A stretch of 27,535 nt of DNA from a virus: positions 1-27,535 of IMG/VR virus record IMGVR_UViG_3300009001_000068; one strand, written 5' to 3'. Shown here piece by piece: positions 9,001-27,535 of the stretch (position 1 is the stretch's first letter; each line of letters opens with the position of its first letter). Both the position numbers and the translations under genes were made by a program. Under the pieces are notes generated by a model. It was not told where the DNA came from. It ran no database searches and saw only the letters and a list, made by a program, of their open reading frames with translations.

Positions 9001-10431
9001 TTCGTCTATGTCTACAGACAAATTATTATATTCGTAACTCTTTACCAAAACATCTCTATGAAACCACTTGTTATAACGACTCCAGGGATTTTTGTCTTGA
9101 CTTGCACGATTAATTATAATATAATCTTTTTCAGCCGCATATGCACTTGCATTTGCAAATGGCAAACTATCAAATTTGTCACTATCAAATGGTATTAATT
9201 TATTTTCACTATATGACGCAGGAATTATTAGATCTTTTTCATTTATAAGAACAATTTTATCTCCAACACCTTCTACATACCAAAGATCTTGCTCATACTT
9301 TTTAGGCAATACGTCACCTTGGAATTCTACTTTCATACCATTTGATAGTGCAACACCATTTGCACTTGTATAAGTTTTCTTTCCTAAAATATCTTCTTCA
9401 ACATTTAAAAAAGTGTTTTCTTCAATGTCATATACTCTAATAACACCGCTTGTATCTACATTATTTTTACTAATATAGTATAGTCTATCAGGTGCATTTG
9501 TAGGTATTGTAAATTCAATTGTACCTTGTTCAATGTATGCAACTGCAACTTCTTCACCTTCTTCACCTATTTTTCTAATTCCATCAGGATAAAGTGTAGA
9601 TACGTTTTCATCGTCCTCAAATGTTACACTGCCACTGCTAGGTAAAACAATAAATTCGCCTACATCATAACTGATACCGTTTGCATCAAACAGTGTTGCA
9701 TCATAAAGACCACTATCACGAAGTCCAGCAGACCCTGCTGTAATAATAGAAGAGCCTGGAGTAAAACTTCTAGTTATAGCAATAGCCATAGGATGGCCAG
9801 GTGCATCAATTTCAAATCTATAAGTTTGTCCTCTATATAATTTTAGTGTCGGATTACGTGTAAGTCCATCATTAAATACATAAGCAACATTGTCACCTTG
9901 GTCTTCTACTGTAACTGTATAAGTGCTTATAACTTCTTTGCTTTGACCTCTTACCGGAACACTTAACGGACCATTAGGGGCCCAGTAGTATTCTCTGAAA
10001 TTTGTAAATTTATCCCAATCAATATTTGGGTTCCAAGCATAGTATTCGCTGTTGTTTAATCTACTGTGATTTTCTGTATTACTTTGGAAATAATTTAATG
10101 TTCCTATATAATCATTATAGTCTTTGTAAAAAGTTACATTGTCTAAATTGTCCTTTATTACAGTAGCCGGTTCAAGCTGATAGTTTTCTCTATCAGATGT
10201 TACATCCCCAATATAGTTGTCAGTTGATTTAAAAGATTTTGCAGTTTTTCTTCCTACATAACCGTTAATTCTTTCTGCCACACCTGGCTGAATTAACTGA
10301 TCTATTGTTCCTTGGAGGAATTTTTTGTTAGCCTCAGTTCTAAAAAACTTAGGAATAAAGTCAGAAGCTGTTCGCTTTTCATTACCATTAGTTGGTAACG
10401 GGCTTTCGTTTTGATTATCATTGTAAGCCAT
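1..10431 (-). CDS. Giant baseplate wedge/tail protein in the gp7 position (partial, C-terminus beyond the window)
   Basis: The frame opens at an ATG whose first base is 10431 (TAATG overlap with the gp6 stop) and shows no stop down to base 1, so at least 3,477 residues lie here. The N-terminus (motifs such as FIPKFFRTEANKKFL and ENYQLEPATVIKDNL) resembles very large structural proteins of marine T4-like phages, and it directly follows gp6, where T4 has gp7 (about 1,030 residues). It is therefore probably a wedge or baseplate-periphery component on the virion surface. Visible segments: a cupredoxin-like fold at about residues 190-335; an HxH segment near 1106-1109; a conserved-looking stretch after it (VAFIKGHDGSYIRAYLDYRD); Y-x-x-GD-x-V modules at about 1575, 1823, 2298, 2388, 3044 and 3098; and FG-GAP-like beta-propeller strands at about 2244-2377, 2948-3031 and 3168-3450. 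No signal peptide or membrane segment is apparent. It is certainly a real gene. The gp7 label rests on position and is moderate; a fused gp7/gp8/fibre-like protein is an alternative. Confidence 0.72.
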   Translation of the reverse strand, partial: MAYNDNQNESPLPTNGNEKRTASDFIPKFFRTEANKKFLQGTIDQLIQPGVAERINGYVGRKTAKSFKSTDNYIGDVTSDRENYQLEPATVIKDNLDNVTFYKDYNDYIGTLNYFQSNTENHSRLNNSEYYAWNPNIDWDKFTNFREYYWAPNGPLSVPVRGQSKEVISTYTVTVEDQGDNVAYVFNDGLTRNPTLKLYRGQTYRFEIDAPGHPMAIAITRSFTPGSSIITAGSAGLRDSGLYDATLFDANGISYDVGEFIVLPSSGSVTFEDDENVSTLYPDGIRKIGEEGEEVAVAYIEQGTIEFTIPTNAPDRLYYISKNNVDTSGVIRVYDIEENTFLNVEEDILGKKTYTSANGVALSNGMKVEFQGDVLPKKYEQDLWYVEGVGDKIVLINEKDLIIPASYSENKLIPFDSDKFDSLPFANASAYAAEKDYIIINRASQDKNPWSRYNKWFHRDVLVKSYEYNNLSVDIDENFRARRPIIEFEAGLKLFNYGAEAKTDIDLIDTFTKDVFSTIEGKLGYNIDGIDLAEGMRVLFASDTDSLVSGKIYKVRFVTINNNRQINLVETEDTNPLDLETIFVTQGKKFGGKTFHYHKNVWIEAQEKTTRNQPPLFDLCCPQGNEYADLDVFSSSTFKGTKIFSYKVGEGSNDVELGFPLSYKTIENSGDIVFEFNLLNDTFSVQDGEDLVSVKTDTAFLRKYKTITDFTYVNGWTNNPIQSKQYVIRQYIANIDLNNDFPIDVFDRAGDLNDLKVVVYVNNKLSVKNTDYEITRINQKAFVNFYTPLQENDSVVIKAFSKQTKNNNGYYELPINLERNPLNEDINEFTLGEVIDHVNSMIEEAPGFKGVYPGLGNLRDLGDTDKYGKRFVKHASPLNLSLYHITNKKYNLIKSVSYANKEYNKFKRVFLETAESLGFDGETKQHVDKVLEVINKDKIKSQPFYFSDMLSYGPNNRIEYKVLDSRITQYPLSTAFTLEKISAKCVNVYLNKKQLVNGKDYTFRSDGYVDISANQIENDIIEIYEYNTSDGSYIAPTPTKLGLYPKYEPELVIDDTYQTDQPTDDGPYKIYGEDSATNIRGWFYPLYTTKESATTADIDAGGTGTYHTHTFNGLNINLYMPGTGGTHGGTDNVEIDAYPIGVAFIKGHDGSYIRAYLDYRDELLLDFEKRIFNNIKVNYDTNIINVDKFIGGDWRDGEFTKQEVDRSLLSSFTKWLTLVDNDYTDNFFYDRLNPFTFNYSQALSPTSQPLPGFWRGIYKRAFDTDRPHSNPWEILGFKIKPKWWNEVYGPAPYTSDNLILWRDIQEGKIAEPGNIRYNADYARPGITSWIPVDSQGKLKHPQESGYVKQFVLRQSTGNFTFGDEAPVETAWRRSSDYPFAVLLSMIVNKPSKIIGEAFDVSRISTNLANQKVYSVTNKNITLDSIVFPNTYADNERVLTAGLVNYIYNLVASDILTVYNDYQNEVTSITNQLGFKLGSFSDTKKLNLILDSRSPQQQLEEGGIYIPQENYKIFFNTSSPLDVAVYSGVVVEKTASGYTIRGYNNENPFFNYLMPLSGSKAVPVTVGGISEDSSEWQGRKYYVKDTVVEYINDYYRVIKTHTSKETFSLENLVKLPELPTVGGKTALFKSNFETVAQSLAYGTTLRTSQEVVDFLLGYGKQLQKIGFDFNFVEEDGSVNNWDQIAREFLFWTTQGWAAGTVITLSPAANKFNFQKDYYVVDNINDEFYPYSILQANGEPLSSEFSSLLRNQNSFGIQTENTAEGLYSASLPLVQKEHVVLIDNKTVFNDIVFQPSTGYRQERIRISGYKAADWNGGLNIPGFIFDDATVVDWEKWKDYKIGNLIKYKQYYYVAVANVSGASKFDSSKWYRLSEKPESELLTNFDYRINQFNDFYSLDTQGFDSELQRMAKHLTGFQKRQYLSNIIPDDVSQYKFYQGFIQDKGTKNALTKLFGSLGSAGENTLEFYEEWALQVGRYGAVDNKKQVEFNLKEDKLLESPQAIELVNVIPNSNFDKHYRILPYEVYDKPVDYNHKPFPTKVVTEEYIKSGGFVREEDVTFVASSEDELPNGNVNLLGLGDYIWITESGVKPWNVFQHIHADAYALDLSEDNLVAQDGKVTYKITLDRWASPFIQEGDIIGIKNAEEYNLTGLYIVKSINLNSVTVYVPEDDLPDTFVNQKFTVSKLRSVKVNDISEANTLAQQKLYPNQRFWIENYSNNDWKVIENSPIYAKRQEIQNIESFEGILQNYSNSIAVTADNRNLFVSSDSELNGKVDYYRRTNESWDLKIDQTILPPDFIEVWTENTRYNTNDIVVYDLDSTRTYWKAKRNHISGTFFSDAEVAENWTQQTDDAILYYDPALSKFGQSIDVSEDGEYLVIGAPDASYVKTKFKGNFDTDTSYVKGDIVRYKESLWRANREILPKIEDQPFSTFDSYINLVDQADTDSTSLTLLVSGDPGLENNVTDHFLIRAPSDMYNGTAPGDGVTLYWNQRSFAYPTLDDYFPFDNRISELSVNFLSREHIIQEKIDNIFFIETFVTLPNIGDFIQTDTGTAEVYYVGTNRDSAVLYLKNRNGVFTVNGELFTAFGDFVGFYTEENTYATSEEVSGYWLFKTYNIGNDPEPQTTELFSGDEFTYSNNRAYYDVGRGLVYSDVRTAAQILDNEPINVYDNIQDTISEIGPYVLRKNQASFINHLSFTGDNNGLELSRPDSRFVIRISKTYSDIIYQRFLNNPSYQINIKFFDNSAYDITPTGITTDDITGTHTIQDMWDGFIDFDFTEFDFQGNVFEPEIGDVLVDVQYPRDGQGGLALTTTTTSAAEVVFYQRNFNSVRVYVKLRPDIASGSWEQLTNIGRYELRRLSNPGLRGNGDPDQIIGTVLNPNNDIAIGTSLIGKLLVIDSGRNFPTTFTWDNVTPIIDQEYYFFNEDIITGIDREPNYPSSLNKDFKQVYNIPAEKTGTTGYLNQGAVSIFRKDVTGSYQYQITLVSEYAGKDKHFGSKVEIKKQNNLYKLLISNKPSGDARNDPYEWRKNPGAIEIYNHGTTIDQNFLGSYQLNKAYSIGDVVKWRDNYYIALKDTTVNEDQIKNSIYWNNISWQRGKDINYRGTYDSTASYKLGDIVLYGSVFWTATTNITSSISVPSEENTSWSITDDRIDYLGYLPNLTSFKALLEETYDPIENIEQFASTFSLDDKGETLVVRSKQQLSDSTLETAIAIYKLKDNKYELSQIIKAPSSSYILSDHDNDAQTPDVYIDINKWADSVSINPQGNKIAVSVPLDDEQGFNKGSVWVYEYNYTNQKFGTVDGEITQPNIKLYSPNNEEVEGFGNSLAYGKDSLVVSSINGDVSIPTRFDTFEEALENSYVLDTTSETRTETTFDSKFTSFKNSKIDKGNIYIFENLQNNLLFSERLIYENAEIEFGRNLLIEDNHIYVGLPNQTSGNKRGAVLDYRKPKNKISYNEIRSSVVPVDVSKIEGAFLYNKRTNEI
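100..3700 (-). repeat. FG-GAP/beta-propeller-like strand repeats in the giant protein
   Basis: Several segments have the blade form (F)G-x-S-(I/V)-x(3)-DG-x-x-(L/I)-(V/A)-(I/V)-x-(A/S)-P followed by G-x-V-x-(I/V)-(Y/F). Examples: KFGQSIDVSEDGEYLVIGAP near 3301-3370; NSIAVTADNRNLFVSSDSEL near 3620-3700; GAVSIFRKD with HFGSKVEI and GAIEIYNHG near 1340-1590; VSINPQGNKIAVSVPLDDEQ with GSVWVYEYN near 590-690; GFGNSLAYGKDSLVVSS near 430-500; and EFGRNLLIEDNHIYVGLPNQ with a following GAV strand near 130-230. FG-GAP-like repeats normally build integrin-type seven-bladed propellers used for binding. The blades are interrupted by the carbohydrate-binding-like modules, and the series may continue past the window. 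Confidence 0.5.
1040..5710 (-). repeat. Six degenerate carbohydrate-binding-like (CBM5/12-type) modules in the giant protein
   Basis: Short segments repeat the pattern aromatic/Y-x(2)-GD-hydrophobic-V-x-(Y/W)-x(2-5)-(Y/F)(W/Y)-x-A. Approximate positions are 5610-5710 (YYVKDTVVEYINDYYRV), 4835-4965 (YKIGNLIKYKQYYYVAVANV), 3440-3540 (YNTNDIVVYDLDSTRTYWKA), 3180-3270 (YVKGDIVRYKESLWRAN), 1200-1300 (YSIGDVVKWRDNYYIALKD) and 1040-1140 (YKLGDIVLYGSVFWTATTN). The last two are tandem, about 54 residues apart. The pattern is the hallmark of small chitin-binding-like modules of the CBM5/12 type and of similar tail-protein modules. Binding of a surface glycan is an inference. Confidence 0.55.
7045..7120 (-). 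other. HxH metal-site-like segment in the giant protein
   Basis: Residues about 1100-1130 read GTGTYHTHTFNGLNINL, followed by a Gly-rich GTGGTHGGTDN. The first pair of histidines is at 7111-7113 and 7105-7107, and a further one is at 7051-7053. HxH motifs within Gly/Thr/Asn-rich sequence are known from phage fibre tips (T4 gp37), where pairs of histidines from three chains bind iron. Whether this segment trimerises or binds metal cannot be told from sequence alone. Confidence 0.35.
9430..9860 (-). other. Cupredoxin-like domain in the giant protein, metal ligands apparently lost
   Basis: Residues about 190-335 of the giant protein carry the pattern L-x-R-G-Q-T-Y-R-F-E-I-D-A-P-G-H-P near 9781-9840, and a closing strand TIPTNAPDRLYYISKNN near 9450-9500. 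This matches the beginning and end of the cupredoxin-like domains common in marine phage and bacterial proteins, which usually end in a YYC-x-x-H-x-x-M-type strand. Here the first histidine (GHP) is kept, but the Cys, second His and Met positions read as I, N and V/D-like residues. The fold is inferred from pattern only; it is probably structural rather than copper-binding. Confidence 0.5.
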
Positions 10432-13400
10432 TAGTAACTATTTCCTCCGCTATTAGTTATGAGTCCGCCAGTAGTTGATGTTGTAGTAGAACTGCTAGAT
10501 GCACTAGTAATTCCATTTGTTATAGTTGTCGAAACACTAGTAATAACATCACCTGATGCTTGTAGTTCTGTTGCTGTTAATTCGTCAATTATTTCAATGT
10601 CGCTCACTTTTGCACCACTAATAAAAATTTCTTCTAATTCTGATTTAATCTCAAAAAGACTTCCGAAACTTTGGTTACCTTGACGGGGAACAATAATAAT
10701 ACTTAAAAGTTTTGGACTTAATGTATTCATAATATATGCACTAAGCTCTTGGAAGTAAAATGTTTCGCCAAAGTCCCAATTTTCTATTTCAAAAAATGTA
10801 TCAATAGCAGAAATAATATCTGATTTTAGTTCATTTTCGTTTACAACTAAATTTCTATTTCTAACAATTTTAAATTTAACTTGCAAGTTTGTATCTGCCT
10901 TTTCGCCAAACAATACTTTATACTTAACTGGATGATAAACTACTTCGTCGCTTATTGACTTAATTGCAGTTATACTGTCTCCGTATGCCCTAGTTAAAAC
11001 ATCGTTGCTAGGCGGCGTCGGTTTTACAGAAGTTTGTCCTGAAATATATTTTCGCATTTCAGTATCATAATTTTTTGTTAGCAAATATGTGTCTATAATA
11101 TTACTTGCACTTGGATCAATTCTATAGTTACTATCAGCAACGTGTACATAATGGAACTTTAATCCACTTCTTCCAGTAAATGCTTTGTAATTAGAATTAA
11201 GTGTAGTATTTCCAGCTGCCTTGTTTAAAGTTTTAAATACCTTTTCTTCTAACAAGTAAAAAATCTGTCCTTCGTTATGAGAATTATAAGCGCCAATACT
11301 GTTTTCATTGTTTACTATTTTAATTTCTAAGTTAGTATTATCAAAAAACTTATAATCTTCTACACCGTCAGTTGTAGTATATTTCTTTTGGAATATAATC
11401 TTCTTTGATATATTAACAAAATCATTATTTTCGTCAACAATAACATTAAAAATATCTAAATCATCTGCTGTTCCGTCGTCGTCTAAATCAAAAAATTCAA
11501 CCTGTATTTTTCTAGTATCAGTATATCCTTCGCCGTCTCTATAAGCATCATTAATAGACCAAAGAAAATCTCTCGAATAAGAAGAATTACTTGACTGCTG
11601 TTTATTAATACTTAAAACTTTGATTTGGTCTCTAAATATTTTTCCTGAAGTTGGATCATAAATCTTATCTGCATTATCAAAAAAGAATCTTATTTCGTCA
11701 GCACTTTCAAATACATATCTTTGATTTCTATTAGTAATAGTATATGTTTCGCCATTAGTTTTAAAATATAACAACCAACTTGAATCTAAATTTTCACCGG
11801 AAATGTCTCCTGACTTTCCTAATGAAAATCCGTTAATAGTATTAATGTCTTCTGCAAGGATTAATTTCCAATCTCTTTCTTCTGTATCGTATCTAAGAGC
11901 AAAATCTTTATATGCAAAAGTTTGATCAATTATTTGTACCTTTAAATCATTTGAAAATGTTTTTGAAAATACTGGAACAATTTCAATTATTTTACTACCT
12001 TCATTTATAGTATCTGAAAGAACAATGTCTCCGACATTGTTTTCATCAAAACTATTTCCTTCATTAGTAACGCTAACAACTTTTGTCCAACGATACGTTG
12101 ATGCTCCGAGCTCAGTATCTAAAGTAGTTAATGTTCCGTTTGGCAAGAAGAATTGCGGAGTACCATTAGCAGTAGTTGGAGGTGCAAATTTAATCATTGC
12201 GCCTGGTTCTAAAAATCTTAAATTATTTGTAACAAAAGATCCTACTTTAAATGTTTGGTTACTGTCAAGTTCTCCTACAAGTATTCCAGAATTTTGATTT
12301 GTACTTTGATAATAATTTTTCCAGACAGCTGATAAATCGCTTGTAGACTTTCTTGGATATTGTCCGTTATAGAAATTACGTAAGTTCGTAGATTGTATTA
12401 TGCCTTCTACTGTATTATATATAACACCCTCAATATCACTTTGCGTAACAAATTTAAAATCAGTATTTGTTTCAAATGTATCTCTATAAATTACACCATC
12501 ATCTGCAAACAAACTAGTGTTGCTGTATTTTCCTGTTGCGTCTTTAAGATCAAAATAACGGCTTATACCACTAGAGATTCTATTAACACTTTTTGTTTTA
12601 ATAATATCTTGACTAATTGCTAACGGTCCAACATTATAATCTTCTGCTGTAATTAATCTGTTTTGTGTATAATAAGTTGCTGGAGCATTTTGTTTTATAC
12701 TTGTATTTGTTTCAGTAGCTGATCCGTTTGATACTGTATAATTTAATCTTAGTCCAAGTGTAAGTTTTTCTAAGTTTCCGTTTCTACCTTGATAAGGAAT
12801 TTCTATGTTAACATTACCGATAGAATTTGGAGTAACAATCATATTTGCATTAGCACTTGTTCTATAGAAAACTTTAAAATTACCTGCAGGTAAGTTTCCA
12901 AAAACTCCATCACTAAAAACTAAATTTATTCTGTCGCCTACTCTAGTTACAACTGAAAATATATTTCTTATTCCTGAAAAAAGGCTATTGTAAATTACGT
13001 TATTACCTTCTACATTATCTAATTTAGTCCAACCTTGTGTTTCAAAGCCGTTAGAATCAATGTTATATAACCATACATCGTCATTGTTAATATTTTCTGC
13101 ATCTACTGCAATAATTTGATTAGGCACTGGATTGTTTACAGCAAAATTACCTGTTTCTAGTTTACCTTGACGGAAGTGCATAAAAAACCCAGTATTGATA
13201 CTAGAAGCACCTTGACCGTCGTCGCGAAAAAGTAAAGCAGGACTTGTTCCTGGTAGAGGAGGTTCTTCTACAATTTTTGAACCTTGAATATCTGTACTTA
13301 CAACTTCAAATCGTGTACTTACTCCTTCAATATTTTTAGAGAAAGGAAAAATAGCACTGTCTGTATTAGTAGATTGTAATCTATATTTTTGTGTTTGTAC

Positions 13401-13943
13401 ACCGTCAATATTCTGAGATTTCAAAGGATTACCAATTGAATTTTGTACAGGTAATGCAGCATTTAATATTTTAATAAATTGTTCAAAATAACCTGTGTTA
13501 CTTTGATCATTCCATTTAATAACTCGACCTGCAAGCTGTGAGCCTGCGCTATCTTTTAAATTTTCAGTTGTTTTTACTGTAGCAATTTTTAACAATCCGT
13601 TTGCTGCTTGATTTCTGCGTGGATTGTATGACAACATACGTGCTAAACGAAGAATTGATTCTCTACGTTCTGCTGTTTCAAGGAAATTTTCTCTAGCATT
13701 TAGATCAACACGGAATGATAAGTTTTGCCCAAGGAATGCAATCATATCAATTAGTGCAAGGTATTCGCTAGACTCGATATAGTCGTTAAAATCTTCTGGA
13801 TAGTTTTGACGCAGATAATTAATCATTGTTCTGCGTAAATTATCAAAATCATAGCTTTGGAAGTCTGCATTCCTAAAACTTTGATATATTCTTTTCCAGT
13901 CTTCAGTTACTAATAACCTTGATTGTCTGTCGCTTGTAGACAT
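10431..13943 (-). CDS. 6: Baseplate wedge protein gp6-like
   Basis: This is the structural wedge subunit that, as a dimer, forms the inner ring joining the baseplate wedges. The first 130 residues carry the family signature (SSEYLALIDMIAFLGQNLSF, then RVDLNARENFLETAERRES and LRLARMLSYNPRR). The last part (NWDFGETFYFQELSAYIMN, VPRQGNQSFGSLFEIKSELE, then EEIFISGAKVSDIEIID) matches the gp6 C-terminal domain. At 1,170 residues it is far longer than T4 gp6 (660), with the excess lying in the middle. It ends in a Ser/Thr/Gly-rich tail of about 35 residues. The ATG start has an AAGGA ribosome site at 13951-13955, 7 nt upstream, and a late promoter octamer lies 27 nt before the start. The stop overlaps the next start as TAATG, which implies coupled translation with the giant protein. 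Confidence 0.95.
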   Translation of the reverse strand: MSTSDRQSRLLVTEDWKRIYQSFRNADFQSYDFDNLRRTMINYLRQNYPEDFNDYIESSEYLALIDMIAFLGQNLSFRVDLNARENFLETAERRESILRLARMLSYNPRRNQAANGLLKIATVKTTENLKDSAGSQLAGRVIKWNDQSNTGYFEQFIKILNAALPVQNSIGNPLKSQNIDGVQTQKYRLQSTNTDSAIFPFSKNIEGVSTRFEVVSTDIQGSKIVEEPPLPGTSPALLFRDDGQGASSINTGFFMHFRQGKLETGNFAVNNPVPNQIIAVDAENINNDDVWLYNIDSNGFETQGWTKLDNVEGNNVIYNSLFSGIRNIFSVVTRVGDRINLVFSDGVFGNLPAGNFKVFYRTSANANMIVTPNSIGNVNIEIPYQGRNGNLEKLTLGLRLNYTVSNGSATETNTSIKQNAPATYYTQNRLITAEDYNVGPLAISQDIIKTKSVNRISSGISRYFDLKDATGKYSNTSLFADDGVIYRDTFETNTDFKFVTQSDIEGVIYNTVEGIIQSTNLRNFYNGQYPRKSTSDLSAVWKNYYQSTNQNSGILVGELDSNQTFKVGSFVTNNLRFLEPGAMIKFAPPTTANGTPQFFLPNGTLTTLDTELGASTYRWTKVVSVTNEGNSFDENNVGDIVLSDTINEGSKIIEIVPVFSKTFSNDLKVQIIDQTFAYKDFALRYDTEERDWKLILAEDINTINGFSLGKSGDISGENLDSSWLLYFKTNGETYTITNRNQRYVFESADEIRFFFDNADKIYDPTSGKIFRDQIKVLSINKQQSSNSSYSRDFLWSINDAYRDGEGYTDTRKIQVEFFDLDDDGTADDLDIFNVIVDENNDFVNISKKIIFQKKYTTTDGVEDYKFFDNTNLEIKIVNNENSIGAYNSHNEGQIFYLLEEKVFKTLNKAAGNTTLNSNYKAFTGRSGLKFHYVHVADSNYRIDPSASNIIDTYLLTKNYDTEMRKYISGQTSVKPTPPSNDVLTRAYGDSITAIKSISDEVVYHPVKYKVLFGEKADTNLQVKFKIVRNRNLVVNENELKSDIISAIDTFFEIENWDFGETFYFQELSAYIMNTLSPKLLSIIIVPRQGNQSFGSLFEIKSELEEIFISGAKVSDIEIIDELTATELQASGDVITSVSTTITNGITSASSSSTTTSTTGGLITNSGGNSY

Positions 13944-13969: not shown

Positions 13970-13977
13970 TATTTATC
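13970..13977 (-). promoter_or_regulatory. T4-type late promoter octamer upstream of gp6
   Basis: On the minus strand the bases read GATAAATA, one mismatch from the T4 late consensus TATAAATA recognised by gp55-containing RNA polymerase. By the usual T4 spacing, transcription would begin near 13964 and leave a leader of about 21 nt with an AAGGA ribosome site. It lies in the only sizeable gap (60 nt) of the tail gene block, so it would boost gp6 and the giant protein. Confidence 0.6.
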
Positions 13978-14003
13978 TGATCTGAAAAAGTGCGTATTTA
14001 ATT

Positions 14004-21850: not shown

Positions 21851-22150
21851 TTACTTTCCTAAAATAGCCGACAAGTTTGATCCCTGAGGCAAATATATCT
21901 TTGTGCCAGCAACAAAGTCAAAGACAGGATCTTTAATTATATCAGGATTGCGTTGAGCAAAAATCCACCAAAGATCTTTTTTTCCGTATAAATCGTGTGC
22001 TAGTAAATCTGGTCTATAATTATAAGCTGGAATTATTTCGTATAATACGTCATTACCTGCAACAGGTACAGGACGAGGTACAAATATATCTAAATACCCT
22101 GCGGTATTAACCGGAGTTTTTCCGTATGGTCCGTTTCCTTTACCTTTCAT
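21851..22150 (-). CDS. 53: Baseplate wedge protein gp53-like (LysM-like)
   Basis: This 99-residue protein carries the gp53 core: YNYRPDLLAHDLYGKKDLWW, then IFAQRNPDIIKDPVFDF and VAGTKIYLP. The last part is the end of a LysM-like fold, which in gp53 is used for clamping adjacent wedges together rather than for binding peptidoglycan. It is half the length of T4 gp53 (196) but normal for marine relatives. The start overlaps the gp48-type stop as TAATG. It completes the wedge set together with gp25, gp6 and the giant protein. Confidence 0.88.
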   Translation of the reverse strand: MKGKGNGPYGKTPVNTAGYLDIFVPRPVPVAGNDVLYEIIPAYNYRPDLLAHDLYGKKDLWWIFAQRNPDIIKDPVFDFVAGTKIYLPQGSNLSAILGK

Positions 22151-23130
22151 TATACAAATCCTTCGTCTTGACCAATGTGTCTGCCTGATGCATAATCAGT
22201 TAAACTAAATCTTGCTTGAGATCTTCTAGCGTACTGTGGAGCAAGTGTTACTGTTATTGTTGCTTGAGCAGGAACATAGTTTTCTTTTCCGTCAACTACT
22301 GTTTTTATATAATCTATATCCGCAGGAAGGTCAGTTGTAAAGTTTGTAATTAATACTGGAATATCATTAAGTACGTGAGGACCATAACCATTTAATCTAC
22401 AGACAACGGGCGGCTGTCCTAATAATGCTTCTTGTCCGCTGTCTCCATAAAACATTTTAGTAGCCGTTCTTAAAAAATGTATACAGGCAATAAAATACTG
22501 TGCATCTTCAGTAGTTTCATTTAAGTATTCACCAGTAATTGTATAATTGTCAACCTGACTATTTTCATAAGCATTATAAGGAAAATTAGTATGTACTGGA
22601 TGAACTTGAGAATAATTTGCACTATGTCCAATTAGCACTGTAGGAGTAAAAGGAAAAATCATTCTATTTCCTGTTCCAGCTAATGGACTTAAAATCTGAC
22701 CAGCATTTGGACCTGCTATAAATATTTCAGGAACACTTATACTTACTCTCCAATCGCTTGCATCTGCTGTCGAAATGTTTGCCGATAATACTGCACGAGA
22801 TAGTTGGCGCGATCTTGGAGCAGCATTGTATCCTACTCCTTGAGAAGCATTTCCTATCATTCGTATTGCACTACCTACATTTGCTAAACTATTGCCTCGA
22901 TTAATTAAGTTATCTACAGCACCAACTGTGTTTCTTAACGACCCTGCAATTGTTGACACTTGTGAAAGTGTGCCTGTTAATCCGCCAGAGGTATCAAAAT
23001 TTCTAATAGTGCTTGCAGCACGATTTATGTTCGAACTAACGTTATTAATAGTGTTAGACACAGAACGTATATTGCTAAAAGCATTATTCACTTTTGTACT
23101 AAGATTGTTAAAGGCACTAAAAATACTCAT
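22150..23130 (-). CDS. 48: Tail tube cap/initiator protein gp48-like (or gp54-like)
   Basis: First gene of the tail block, 326 residues. Residues 1-110 are low-complexity Ser/Asn/Ile/Val helices (FNNLSTKVNNAFSNIRSVSN and similar). Residues 125-310 are a beta-rich domain with the features I associate with the marine gp48 family: MIFPFTPTVLIGHSANYSQV, NYTITGEYLNETTEDAQYFI, FLRTATKMFYGDSGQE and VVCRLNGYGPHVLNDIPVLI. In T4, gp48 and gp54 cap the baseplate hub and start tube polymerisation; only one such gene lies here, so which of the two it is remains open. The start has GGAG at 23141-23144, 10 nt upstream, and a late-promoter-like octamer just beyond it. Confidence 0.75.
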   Translation of the reverse strand: MSIFSAFNNLSTKVNNAFSNIRSVSNTINNVSSNINRAASTIRNFDTSGGLTGTLSQVSTIAGSLRNTVGAVDNLINRGNSLANVGSAIRMIGNASQGVGYNAAPRSRQLSRAVLSANISTADASDWRVSISVPEIFIAGPNAGQILSPLAGTGNRMIFPFTPTVLIGHSANYSQVHPVHTNFPYNAYENSQVDNYTITGEYLNETTEDAQYFIACIHFLRTATKMFYGDSGQEALLGQPPVVCRLNGYGPHVLNDIPVLITNFTTDLPADIDYIKTVVDGKENYVPAQATITVTLAPQYARRSQARFSLTDYASGRHIGQDEGFV

Positions 23131-23149
23131 AATACGGTTTCTCCATTAG

Positions 23150-23157
23150 TATTTAGT
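23150..23157 (-). promoter_or_regulatory. Late-promoter-like octamer for the tail block
   Basis: On the minus strand the bases read ACTAAATA, which keeps the TAAATA core of the T4 late octamer TATAAATA. With T4 spacing, transcription would start near 23144, at the ribosome site itself, giving a very short leader of about 14 nt. It shares base 23157 with the -35 box of the divergent promoter. Plausible but not proven; the short leader lowers confidence. Confidence 0.45.
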
Positions 23158-23185
23158 TGACAAACTTAACAGAGTATATTATAAT
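23157..23185 (+). promoter_or_regulatory. Perfect sigma-70 consensus promoter for gp55
   Basis: TTGACA at 23157-23162 and TATAAT at 23180-23185 are separated by exactly 17 bp, so both hexamers and the spacer match the bacterial housekeeping consensus. This is what an early phage gene read by unmodified host polymerase would use. Transcription should begin near 23192, about 17 nt before the gp55 ATG, leaving room for the GGAG ribosome site at 23199-23202. Confidence 0.88.
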
Positions 23186-23208
23186 AAATATAACAACTGG
23201 AGCAACAA

Positions 23209-24051
23209 ATGAGACCTAAAAATTACCTCAATAACAAAGACATTCTCAAAGAAATACATCGATCAAAAAATACATTCAATAGCTTTGTTGAAAAAGATTA
23301 TGCAAACTATGATATTATTTTAGAAAGCGTTGATAAAATTAACATTAGAACTATTGCAGAAGCAAAACGTAACAAAGCAAAAAAACTAAGCAGCGAAGAG
23401 TACGATAAACGTAAAACAGCAGGTGAAAAAGTTAAACAAGCAGACTGCGAAATTGACTATAAAAGCATTACCAAAGAAGAATTAATTTTTCGAATTATGA
23501 CGTTTGATCATATTCCAGAAGAGCCAGGACGTAAAAAGAATCCTAAAACTATAGCAGATACAAAAGTAAAATTAAATTTTCCACCTTTTCAACACTATAA
23601 GTTTAACGAAGACGGTGAACTAATCTGTGTTGGCAAAAGTCATTGGCAAGGTGGTATGGAAAACGGATACTTTAGTATAACCCACGGAAAAGCTACAGAC
23701 AAACTTGCACTTATGTGGATGAAACTGTGTGATCGTTATGCTACAAGAGGAAATGTGAGAGGATACACCTACAATGACGAAATGCGAGGACAAGCGATAC
23801 TGCAACTTGCTCAAATTGGTCTACAGTTTGATGAGTCTAAAAGTCAAAACCCCTTTGCTTACTACACAGCGGCAGTTACAAACTCATTTGTACGTGTTAT
23901 CAACATTGAAAAACGCAATCAAAACATTAGAGACGACATCCTTGAAATGAATGACTTGTCTCCAAGTTATACAAGACAACACCAAGGCGAGTGGGAAGCA
24001 AGTGTTCGTAGAAACGAAGAAGCCGATATGAGTTCATTTTCTAAAAAATAA
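23209..24051 (+). CDS. 55: Late-transcription sigma factor gp55-like
   Basis: This protein redirects host RNA polymerase to late promoters in T4-like phages. Its C-terminal half holds the family core: DRYATRGNVRGYTYNDEMRG, then QLAQIGLQFDESKSQNPFAY and VRVINIEKRNQNIRDDILEM (residues about 180-250), corresponding to sigma-70 region 2 (core binding and recognition of the TATAAATA-type element). It is 280 residues, against 185 for T4 gp55. The extra length lies mostly in a Lys/Glu-rich N-terminal part and in the insert around QHYKFNEDGELICVGKSHWQ. The ATG has GGAG 6 nt upstream. It has its own consensus sigma-70 promoter and lies back-to-back with the tail genes that it should activate. Confidence 0.92.
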   Translation: MRPKNYLNNKDILKEIHRSKNTFNSFVEKDYANYDIILESVDKINIRTIAEAKRNKAKKLSSEEYDKRKTAGEKVKQADCEIDYKSITKEELIFRIMTFDHIPEEPGRKKNPKTIADTKVKLNFPPFQHYKFNEDGELICVGKSHWQGGMENGYFSITHGKATDKLALMWMKLCDRYATRGNVRGYTYNDEMRGQAILQLAQIGLQFDESKSQNPFAYYTAAVTNSFVRVINIEKRNQNIRDDILEMNDLSPSYTRQHQGEWEASVRRNEEADMSSFSKK

Positions 24052-24053
24052 GG

Positions 24054-24082
24054 TTGACAACTGTATAATTACATAGTATACT
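24054..24082 (+). promoter_or_regulatory. Strong sigma-70-type promoter for gp47-gp46
   Basis: TTGACA at 24054-24059 and TATACT at 24077-24082 are 17 bp apart, one base from full consensus. The -35 box begins only 3 nt after the gp55 stop codon. Initiation would fall near 24089, giving a leader of about 20 nt that contains the GGAGG ribosome site of gp47. Confidence 0.8.
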
Positions 24083-27115: not shown

Positions 27116-27143
27116 GGTAAGTAACTGATGCAGTGGACTTACC
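27116..27143 (+). promoter_or_regulatory. Hairpin with the start codon in its loop, controlling the GIY-YIG gene
   Basis: GGTAAGT (27116-27122) pairs with ACTTACC (27137-27143), 7 bp. Inside, ACTG (27124-27127) pairs with CAGT (27131-27134), 4 bp. The triloop left over is exactly the ATG at 27128-27130. The only Shine-Dalgarno-like bases at correct spacing (GGTAAG, 6 nt upstream) lie in the outer stem. Such a structure should hinder ribosome binding unless opened or unless the start is made from a shorter transcript, as known for some T4 homing endonuclease mRNAs. Confidence 0.6.
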
Positions 27144-27535
27144 AAGGACAAACAATTGACACTATACCAGAAGAGTATGAAGGCTTTGTTTATCTTATTA
27201 CCAATCTTACCACTGGGCAAAAATACGTAGGCAAAAAACTAGCAAAGTTTAAAACAACTAAGCCACCACTCAAAGGCAAAAAAAATAAACGTAGAGGCTA
27301 CAAAGAAAGCGATTGGAAAGACTATTGGGGTTCATCTGATAGACTTAATGCTGATGTTGAAGCACTAGGCCCAGAAAATTTCATAAGAGAGATATTATAT
27401 CTTTGCAAAGGCAGAGGCGAAATGTCTTACATCGAGGCAAGAGAGCAATTTGACCGCCGTGTATTAGAGAGCGACGAGTATTACAATGGAATTATTAATG
27501 TTAGAGTTGGCGGTTCCGACAAATTGCGACAGGCA
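27128..27535 (+). CDS. GIY-YIG nuclease (partial, C-terminus beyond the window)
   Basis: The 136 codons in view stay open to the last base. Residues 19-37 (GFVYLITNLTTGQKYVGKK) contain the GIY-YIG core in the form VYL...KYVG. The region that follows, KDYWGSSDRLNADVEALG and then ENFIREILYLCKGRGE, resembles T4 Seg-type and other phage GIY-YIG proteins, and EAREQFDRRVLESDEYYNG fits the end of the domain. The usual catalytic Arg and Glu of the family cannot be assigned safely by eye. It is likely a free-standing homing endonuclease or a phage DNA repair nuclease; the window ends before any DNA-binding region could be judged. It begins 31 nt after the small gene, behind a strong hairpin. Confidence 0.75.
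   Translation, partial: MQWTYQGQTIDTIPEEYEGFVYLITNLTTGQKYVGKKLAKFKTTKPPLKGKKNKRRGYKESDWKDYWGSSDRLNADVEALGPENFIREILYLCKGRGEMSYIEAREQFDRRVLESDEYYNGIINVRVGGSDKLRQA

Follow-up and report, generated by a model that had tools for sequence, protein, structure and literature searches.

Can the early promoter of a late sigma factor and a late promoter of virion genes be used side by side when both lie in one short intergenic gap, or does use of one preclude use of the other? This question arises from the window analysed here, which is the whole of a 27,535-base virus fragment (IMGVR_UViG_3300009001_000068). A gap of 78 bp (23131 to 23208) lies between a minus-strand open reading frame (ORF; 22150 to 23130) and the plus-strand gene of a gp55-type late sigma factor of 280 amino acids (23209 to 24051; phrog_12791, E = 1.2e-79; also phrog_234). 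The minus-strand genes to the left of 23131 encode virion structural and baseplate proteins: the ORF next to the gap, the first gene of the late block, matched a virion structural protein (phrog_12050, E = 1.2e-42), and the next minus-strand gene (21851 to 22150) matched a baseplate wedge subunit (phrog_7145, E = 9.4e-25). All three assignments agree with the original prediction, which had been made from the sequence alone. The plus-strand genes to the right of the gap encode gp55, SbcD, SbcC and a GIY-YIG endonuclease; the latter, a SegE-like homing endonuclease gene 3' of SbcC, occupies 27128 to 27535 (PF19835, E = 1.4e-34).

The protein is a homologue of T4 gp55, since the T4 chain (7d7c_F) matched its amino acids 161 to 236 by sequence (E = 3.4e-5). 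An AlphaFold2 model had T4 gp55 as its best Foldseek match with a probability of 1.00, but with an E value of only 4.4e-3, and no PDB entry matched the whole model at an E value of 0.001. About 150 residues precede the T4-like core, with pLDDT mostly above 90 (AlphaFold2). A profile search for gp45 gave no match, and control profiles likewise gave none.

Two promoters in one gap

Ahead of gp55, a -35 box TTGACA (23157 to 23162) is followed after 17 nt by a -10 box TATAAT (23180 to 23185), both on the plus strand. The perfect sigma-70 promoter that had been predicted here was indeed found: it matches the consensus at 12 of 12 positions and is the sole perfect site in the whole window, and 300 dinucleotide shuffles contained on average 0.03 such sites per window. 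GGAG at 23199 to 23202 is the likely ribosome-binding site of gp55. On the minus strand, the octamer ACTAAATA (23150 to 23157, read from 23157 to 23150) lies 19 nt from the ATG of the left gene and is of the T4 type. The late octamer of T4, TATAAATA, is placed at -13 to -6 (PMC1524935), and CTAAATA from -12 is given as the putative late motif of the T4-like phage Aeh1 (PMC1524935; also PMC2988020). By the T4 rule, the late start is predicted at 23144, the same position as in the original prediction, and GGAG at 23141 to 23144 on the minus strand, the likely ribosome-binding site of the left gene, lies at this predicted start. As in T4, an octamer of this type stands about one turn before the predicted start and a gp55 homologue is present.

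Octamer and -35 box have base 23157 in common, and none of the 300 shuffles had TATTTA within 0 to 2 nt of TTGAC(A/T) followed after 16 to 18 nt by TATAAT. The one-base overlap first proposed thus stands, but the total overlap is larger, because an element of the late promoter lies in the early spacer (see below). A plus-strand late octamer, AATAAATA at 23183 to 23190 over the -10 box, was seen by eye in a minority of relatives and was rejected as not conserved.

TAAATA was enriched at -35 to -21 before gene starts, with 17, 28 and 23 occurrences per 5-nt bin, where coding sequence predicts about 1 (563 genes in six large relative contigs and the window, called with a simple script). The motif piles up before gene starts and is therefore a real late-promoter signature in this phage group. 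In the window as a whole, TAAATA was underrepresented (22 observed versus 60.7 expected), as if genes avoided stray late octamers. In nine records (the window, contigs G001 to G006, a 335-kb contig and phage PA5oct; ORFs of at least 40 amino acids), the distance from TAAATA to ATG, counted from 0 to 12 nt, was most often 5 nt (37 cases), followed by 4 nt (20 cases), with 1 to 9 cases at each other distance. A start 6 nt past the octamer would place the A of the ATG at +1 or adjacent to it at the peak distances, and leaderless late mRNAs thus look common in these phages.

Both signals are kept in relatives. The best 80 of at least 600 candidate stretches encoded a gp55 77 to 90% identical to that of the window, and 78 of the 81 loci (window and relatives) had at least 100 nt upstream of gp55 and were compared, 3 being left out. 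The exact 12-mer TATTTAGTTGAC with the 17-nt spacing was present in 77 of these 78 loci, with TATAAT as the -10 box in 74, TATACT in 2 and TATTAT in 1. Among the 67 unique sequences, TTGAC and the octamer ACTAAATA were invariant, and the sixth base of the -35 box was A in 47 and T in 20. The left ORF was homologous to that of the window in 75 of the 76 loci examined (4 of the 80 were left out); at L036, no left ORF was found upstream of gp55. The gene order is thus kept along with both elements, as the original prediction had demanded of relatives. Exactly one copy of the 12-mer was present in each of 15 large contigs and likewise in a contig of 335,231 bases that encodes the same gp55 (83% identity). 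This contig, PBPT01000016.1, and PBPT01000082.1 (153,204 bp; gp55 likewise 83% identical), which correspond to loci L482 and L483, come from a Neomarinimicrobiota metagenome bin and look like misbinned jumbo phage genomes. Two loci, L055 and L080, have an extra TTGACA promoter (with TATAAT and TATACT, respectively) between the conserved module and gp55. No isolates of the clade were found: all 278 phage matches were below 60% identity. We also tried the pattern ATTTAGTTGAC-N15..17-TATAAT, which was present in at least 120 stretches; among the 80 examined, four had a weak gp55 match and did not have the spacer in common. By sequence, then, the overlap of the two predicted promoters at gp55 is confirmed and is strongly conserved across a clade of large marine viruses of bacteria.

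The upstream element in the early spacer

The 17-nt spacer of the gp55 promoter was conserved with 1.37 bits per site, versus 0.45 at the early promoter of SbcD (45 paired loci), and six fourfold third positions in gp55 gave 0.42 bits per site (64 loci). The SbcD control, GG-TTGACA-17-TATACT at 24054 to 24082 on the plus strand and about 900 nt from the gp55 promoter, was found in 65 of the 81 loci with weak matches included, which may lower its conservation. Judged by this comparison, a sigma-70 promoter does not account for the conserved gp55 spacer.

We therefore turned to gp55 loci outside the clade, grouped in 36 distant clusters that are 37 to 64% identical to the window gp55 over the best segment and none of which was chosen by motif. 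A motif finder was free to place a 17-nt motif anywhere in columns 8 to 29 from the octamer start; in 26 of 233 gp55 loci, no octamer followed a start of the left gene with its ribosome site, and anchors were set by hand for some of these 26 (L236 and those of the L459/L462/L464 type); L031 was left out with its anchor inside the left gene. De novo, the element was recovered with a score of 336.7, whereas 25 shuffles averaged 214.2 and reached at most 224.9, and it lay at columns 12 to 14 in 31 of the 36 clusters. A rerun scored 348.3, with 31 of 36 at columns 13 to 15, and in leave-one-out runs 29 of 36 were within one column of the mode. When the matrix from the distant loci was applied to the main clade, it fell on the spacer: 65 of 66 unique sequences were matched in the same column, with a mean of 9.0 bits; shuffles gave 0.26 bits and 78 other late promoters 0.31 bits. 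In the window, the element occupies 23165 to 23181, that is, early spacer and the first two bases of the -10 box, or -21 to -37 of the late promoter. The window's own copy, a CAGAG variant, is weak (0.98 bits), and it is one of three weak gp55-side copies among eight genomes (1.0 bits each in the window and the 335-kb contig, 0.4 in G001). A further 97 stretches carried the pattern TATTTA-N6-AAATTAACTAC, with gp55 on 20 and adjoining in 19; these were excluded from the motif statistics, having been selected by the motif itself.

In the distant relatives, most of which have their early promoter elsewhere, the element keeps a fixed distance to the late octamer. Of the 36 distant clusters, 31 could be scored for a sigma-70 -35 box. 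In 29 of them the best box began 27 to 108 nt away from the start of the octamer, and in the remaining two 9 and 11 nt away; weak boxes, for example the fused -35 box at L465, were missed. Early and late promoters thus lie apart in most distant clusters, so strict overlap is not needed for this type of phage. Other relatives have a second fused form, in which TTGCAA overlaps the octamer by two bases with the same spacer. In L438, L443, L445, L451, L454 and L455, TATTTA-N5..6-TAAATA places late octamers back to back upstream of gp55 and the early promoter lies further on, as if gp55 had a late promoter too. In L298, L333 and L337, gp55 follows soon after the element and no sigma-70 promoter was visible between them.

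Loss of the fused form was found once within the clade. Locus L046 is nested there as the sister of L076 (support 99/87 in a gp55 tree of 53). It has lost both boxes of the old early promoter, -35 as well as -10. The late octamer, here TATAAATA, and an intact element (11.8 bits) are retained, and TTGACT-16-TATAAT forms a new early promoter nearer to gp55. The element has thus outlived the early promoter. These sequence comparisons indicate that the element is part of the late promoter and is common to other late promoters.

Among isolate jumbo phages, PA5oct, 121Q, Vibrio 2.275, GAP32 and RaK2 resemble the window in that structural genes diverge from gp55-gp47/46 and a late octamer lies on the minus strand; SCTP-2 has a similar divergent gap but different genes after gp55. 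All six are without the 12-mer of the window clade, and the octamer start is 29 nt from the -35 box in PA5oct and 9 to 11 nt in RaK2 and 121Q. The exact 12-mer was present only in Atu_ph07 among the eight isolate gaps and had no -10 box at 17 nt there; in this phage (L238, 2900 to 3000), an exact TATTTAGTTGACAAATTAACTAC lies beside a gp55 only 44% identical. The Atu_ph07 paper names the late sigma gene, and its main text does not contain the word "promoter" (PMC6102473). Sinorhizobium phage Phosso, which was held out of training, had the element before the neighbour of gp55 with 12.5 bits, the best site in a gap of 215 nt. In leave-one-out scans, the element at the gp55 locus reached 13.3 bits in Atu_ph07, 5.2 in RaK2 and 4.9 in PA5oct, and a matrix scan did not reveal it in the gp55 gap of 121Q, Vibrio 2.275, GAP32 or SCTP-2.

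Other late promoters with the element

The element is not unique to gp55, as we had considered: a second copy in the window, at 13985 to 14001 (11.9 bits), overturned this. It lies upstream of the minus-strand late octamer GATAAATA (13970 to 13977, read from 13977 to 13970), at the same octamer distance as at the gp55 locus, and before a baseplate wedge gene (10431 to 13943, minus strand; phrog_10646, E = 2.5e-295) that we call gp6-like, a name of our own. In the window, the gene before the gp6-like gene is on the same strand, so the element there is no part of an early promoter. The ORFs of the nine records were surveyed for late octamers followed by a ribosome site, with 7 nt or more before the ATG, so that short-leader sites were missed. 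Of the 169 octamers obtained, 10 had an element of at least 8 bits versus 0.5 expected, and 12 one of at least 6 bits versus 1.4 expected from shuffles. All 12 lie at one of two genes: five of eight genomes have such an element before the left gene of gp55, and seven of eight before the gp6-like gene, where the copy in the 335-kb contig is the one miss (2.9 bits). Of the other late octamers, 2 of 153 had an element of at least 4 bits.

The gp6-like promoter was examined in 80 relatives of gene 10431-13943, the best of about 600 and not motif-chosen. TAAATA was present 8 to 60 nt before the start in 80 of 80. With free placement, the gp55-trained matrix picked columns 14 to 16 in 36 of 37 clusters, with a mean of 8.19 bits versus -8.26 in shuffles and at least 4 bits in 30 of 37 clusters versus 2.7% of shuffles; for loci with more than one TAAATA, the copy with the highest-scoring element was used, a choice that the shuffles did not have. 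TTGAC at the position equivalent to that at gp55 was found in 0 of the 37 clusters. The element at the gp25 promoter scored 13.2 bits in Phosso, 5.3 in PA5oct and 2.3 in Atu_ph07.

A search of three subsets of 36 other late promoters gave motif scores of 217.5 to 221.2 versus shuffle maxima of 213.4 to 217.0, which is little excess. T4 late promoters are described as having no sequence conservation at -35 (PMC2988020), and the other late octamers of the group mostly appear to fit this rule, whereas the baseplate and tail promoters depart from it with a common element. When all 1,725 TATTTA sites of the nine records were scanned, 14 reached 8 bits. One of them, PA5oct 49608 (12.3 bits), lies 5 nt before the 41-amino-acid gp356, upstream of gp357 and the tail-fibre/gp10-like gp358; another, G004 3198 (12.6 bits), lies 5 nt ahead of a tail tube gene, where weaker elements in the same column were found in G003 (4.9 bits) and the 335-kb contig (2.9 bits). 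Two further sites of at least 8 bits are inside open frames (G002 and PA5oct). We take the tail genes as a lead to a third group with the element, and the putative promoter class is called baseplate/tail for this reason.

The base adjoining the -35 box of gp55 was also compared between classes. In 61 other early promoter candidates, drawn from seven contigs and the window, TTGAC was preceded by G in 36, C in 18, A in 6 and T in 1, and T preceded 671 of 2,235 TTGAC sites at large; GG stood directly before TTGAC in 31 of the 61. The base before TAAATA was A in 30 of 49 late octamers of the 335-kb contig, which reads T on the early strand. At the gp55 overlap, the base before TTGAC was G in 67 of 67 unique sequences; read as late base -12, it was C in 67 of 67 versus A in 33 of 37 gp6-like clusters. 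This base looks like a compromise between early and late preferences. Set against the usual pattern of both classes, the G at the overlap therefore makes it appear that both promoters are selected simultaneously.

Use of the two promoters

The footprint of RNA polymerase extends from about -55 to +20. With the early start predicted at about 23192 and the late start at 23144, a polymerase bound at one promoter would overlie most of the second one, and the early and late start signals at gp55 are probably unusable together. The best explanation, to which we give a probability of about one-half, is that two divergent promoters share the same DNA and that late occupancy excludes early gp55 transcription. 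On the baseplate side there would be a two-part late promoter, consisting of the octamer ACTAAATA at -13 to -6 and, further upstream at about -37 to -21, the element, which would be confined to the baseplate/tail class. On the gp55 side there would be a host-type early promoter, whose -35 box meets the octamer and whose spacer and first -10 bases lie on the element. Since the early promoter is built inside the two-part late promoter, the two should not be occupied at once. Host polymerase would make gp55 early in infection; as gp55 and a putative reader of the element accumulate, late polymerase would come to occupy the baseplate promoter. It would exclude host polymerase from the gp55 promoter because both need 23157 to 23181, so early gp55 expression should fall as the baseplate block opens. 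We thus infer mutual exclusion from the layout and, from mutual exclusion, that rising late occupancy would lower early gp55 transcription.

A known system with some of these features is phage phi29, in which p4 represses the early promoters A2b and A2c and activates the late promoter A3 from sites that overlap -35 elements (PMC3100819). Early and late promoters lie in one intergenic region there too; phi29, however, uses the dedicated regulators p4 and p6, whereas at the window locus the early gene is that of the late sigma factor itself. By this analogy, the architecture of the window is compatible with an early/late switch of the phi29 type. Searches of the open-access literature in PMC listed no work on early and late promoters that overlap at gp55.

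The overlap might also be compact packing, with two needed promoters squeezed into one gap and exclusion as a by-product without regulatory use. The overlap would then be kept since each part is needed and moving one takes several changes, and conservation of 12-mer and spacer would be expected on those grounds alone. L046, which swapped the overlap for a separate early promoter, and the separated promoters of most distant clusters agree with this. On the other hand, the fused form was kept in 77 of 78 loci although the flanks and the N terminus of the left protein vary, and the fused form with TTGCAA is present in other relatives. We consider packing without a regulatory use rather unlikely, if clearly the strongest competitor; sequence cannot separate it from a selected switch, and L046 and the separated clusters urge caution.

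Lower still we rate a third reading, in which the element is an operator for a regulator that represses these late promoters and the clade's gp55 early promoter until late infection. The element does lie at a constant place within the -35 region of late promoters and, in the clade, between -35 and -10 of the early promoter. A palindromic operator was plausible by eye, but the inverted-repeat score of 4.77 was not significant (shuffles, 4.68 ± 0.09) and no regulator was identified, which makes this reading improbable.

A role of the conserved block as a replication origin or packaging site, rather than in transcription control, is very improbable. The GC skew does change sign at the block, both in the 335-kb contig and in the window, but gene orientation flips at the same place, and the second copy of the element lies before the gp6-like gene, which follows a same-strand gene in the window. 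Least credible is that the octamer is no promoter and ATTTAG an upstream extension of the gp55 early promoter, for although ATTTAG abuts the -35 box in 77 of 78 loci, none of the 61 other early promoter candidates has TATTTA within 14 nt upstream, TAAATA is enriched ahead of gene starts, L046 retains its octamer despite loss of the adjacent -35 box, and distant loci retain theirs with the early promoter further off.

Beyond the proposed exclusion of host polymerase from the gp55 promoter, the data may point to a class of T4-type late promoters in jumbo phages that carries a -35-like element at baseplate and tail operons, combined in a marine clade with shut-off of the gp55 early promoter. We regard this combined proposal as possible but hold it somewhat less firmly than the exclusion itself. 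If true, it would imply either that the late holoenzyme contacts DNA at a second place or that these promoters have a dedicated activator. T4 late promoters are the textbook case of a TATA-like octamer with nothing at -35. That some late promoters share a conserved element at a fixed position suggests unequal handling of the late genes, and baseplate and tail genes of T4-like jumbo phages may have separate control. With the superposed early promoter of gp55, the question of how a phage might restrain the late sigma factor that it encodes could be tested on a short piece of DNA.
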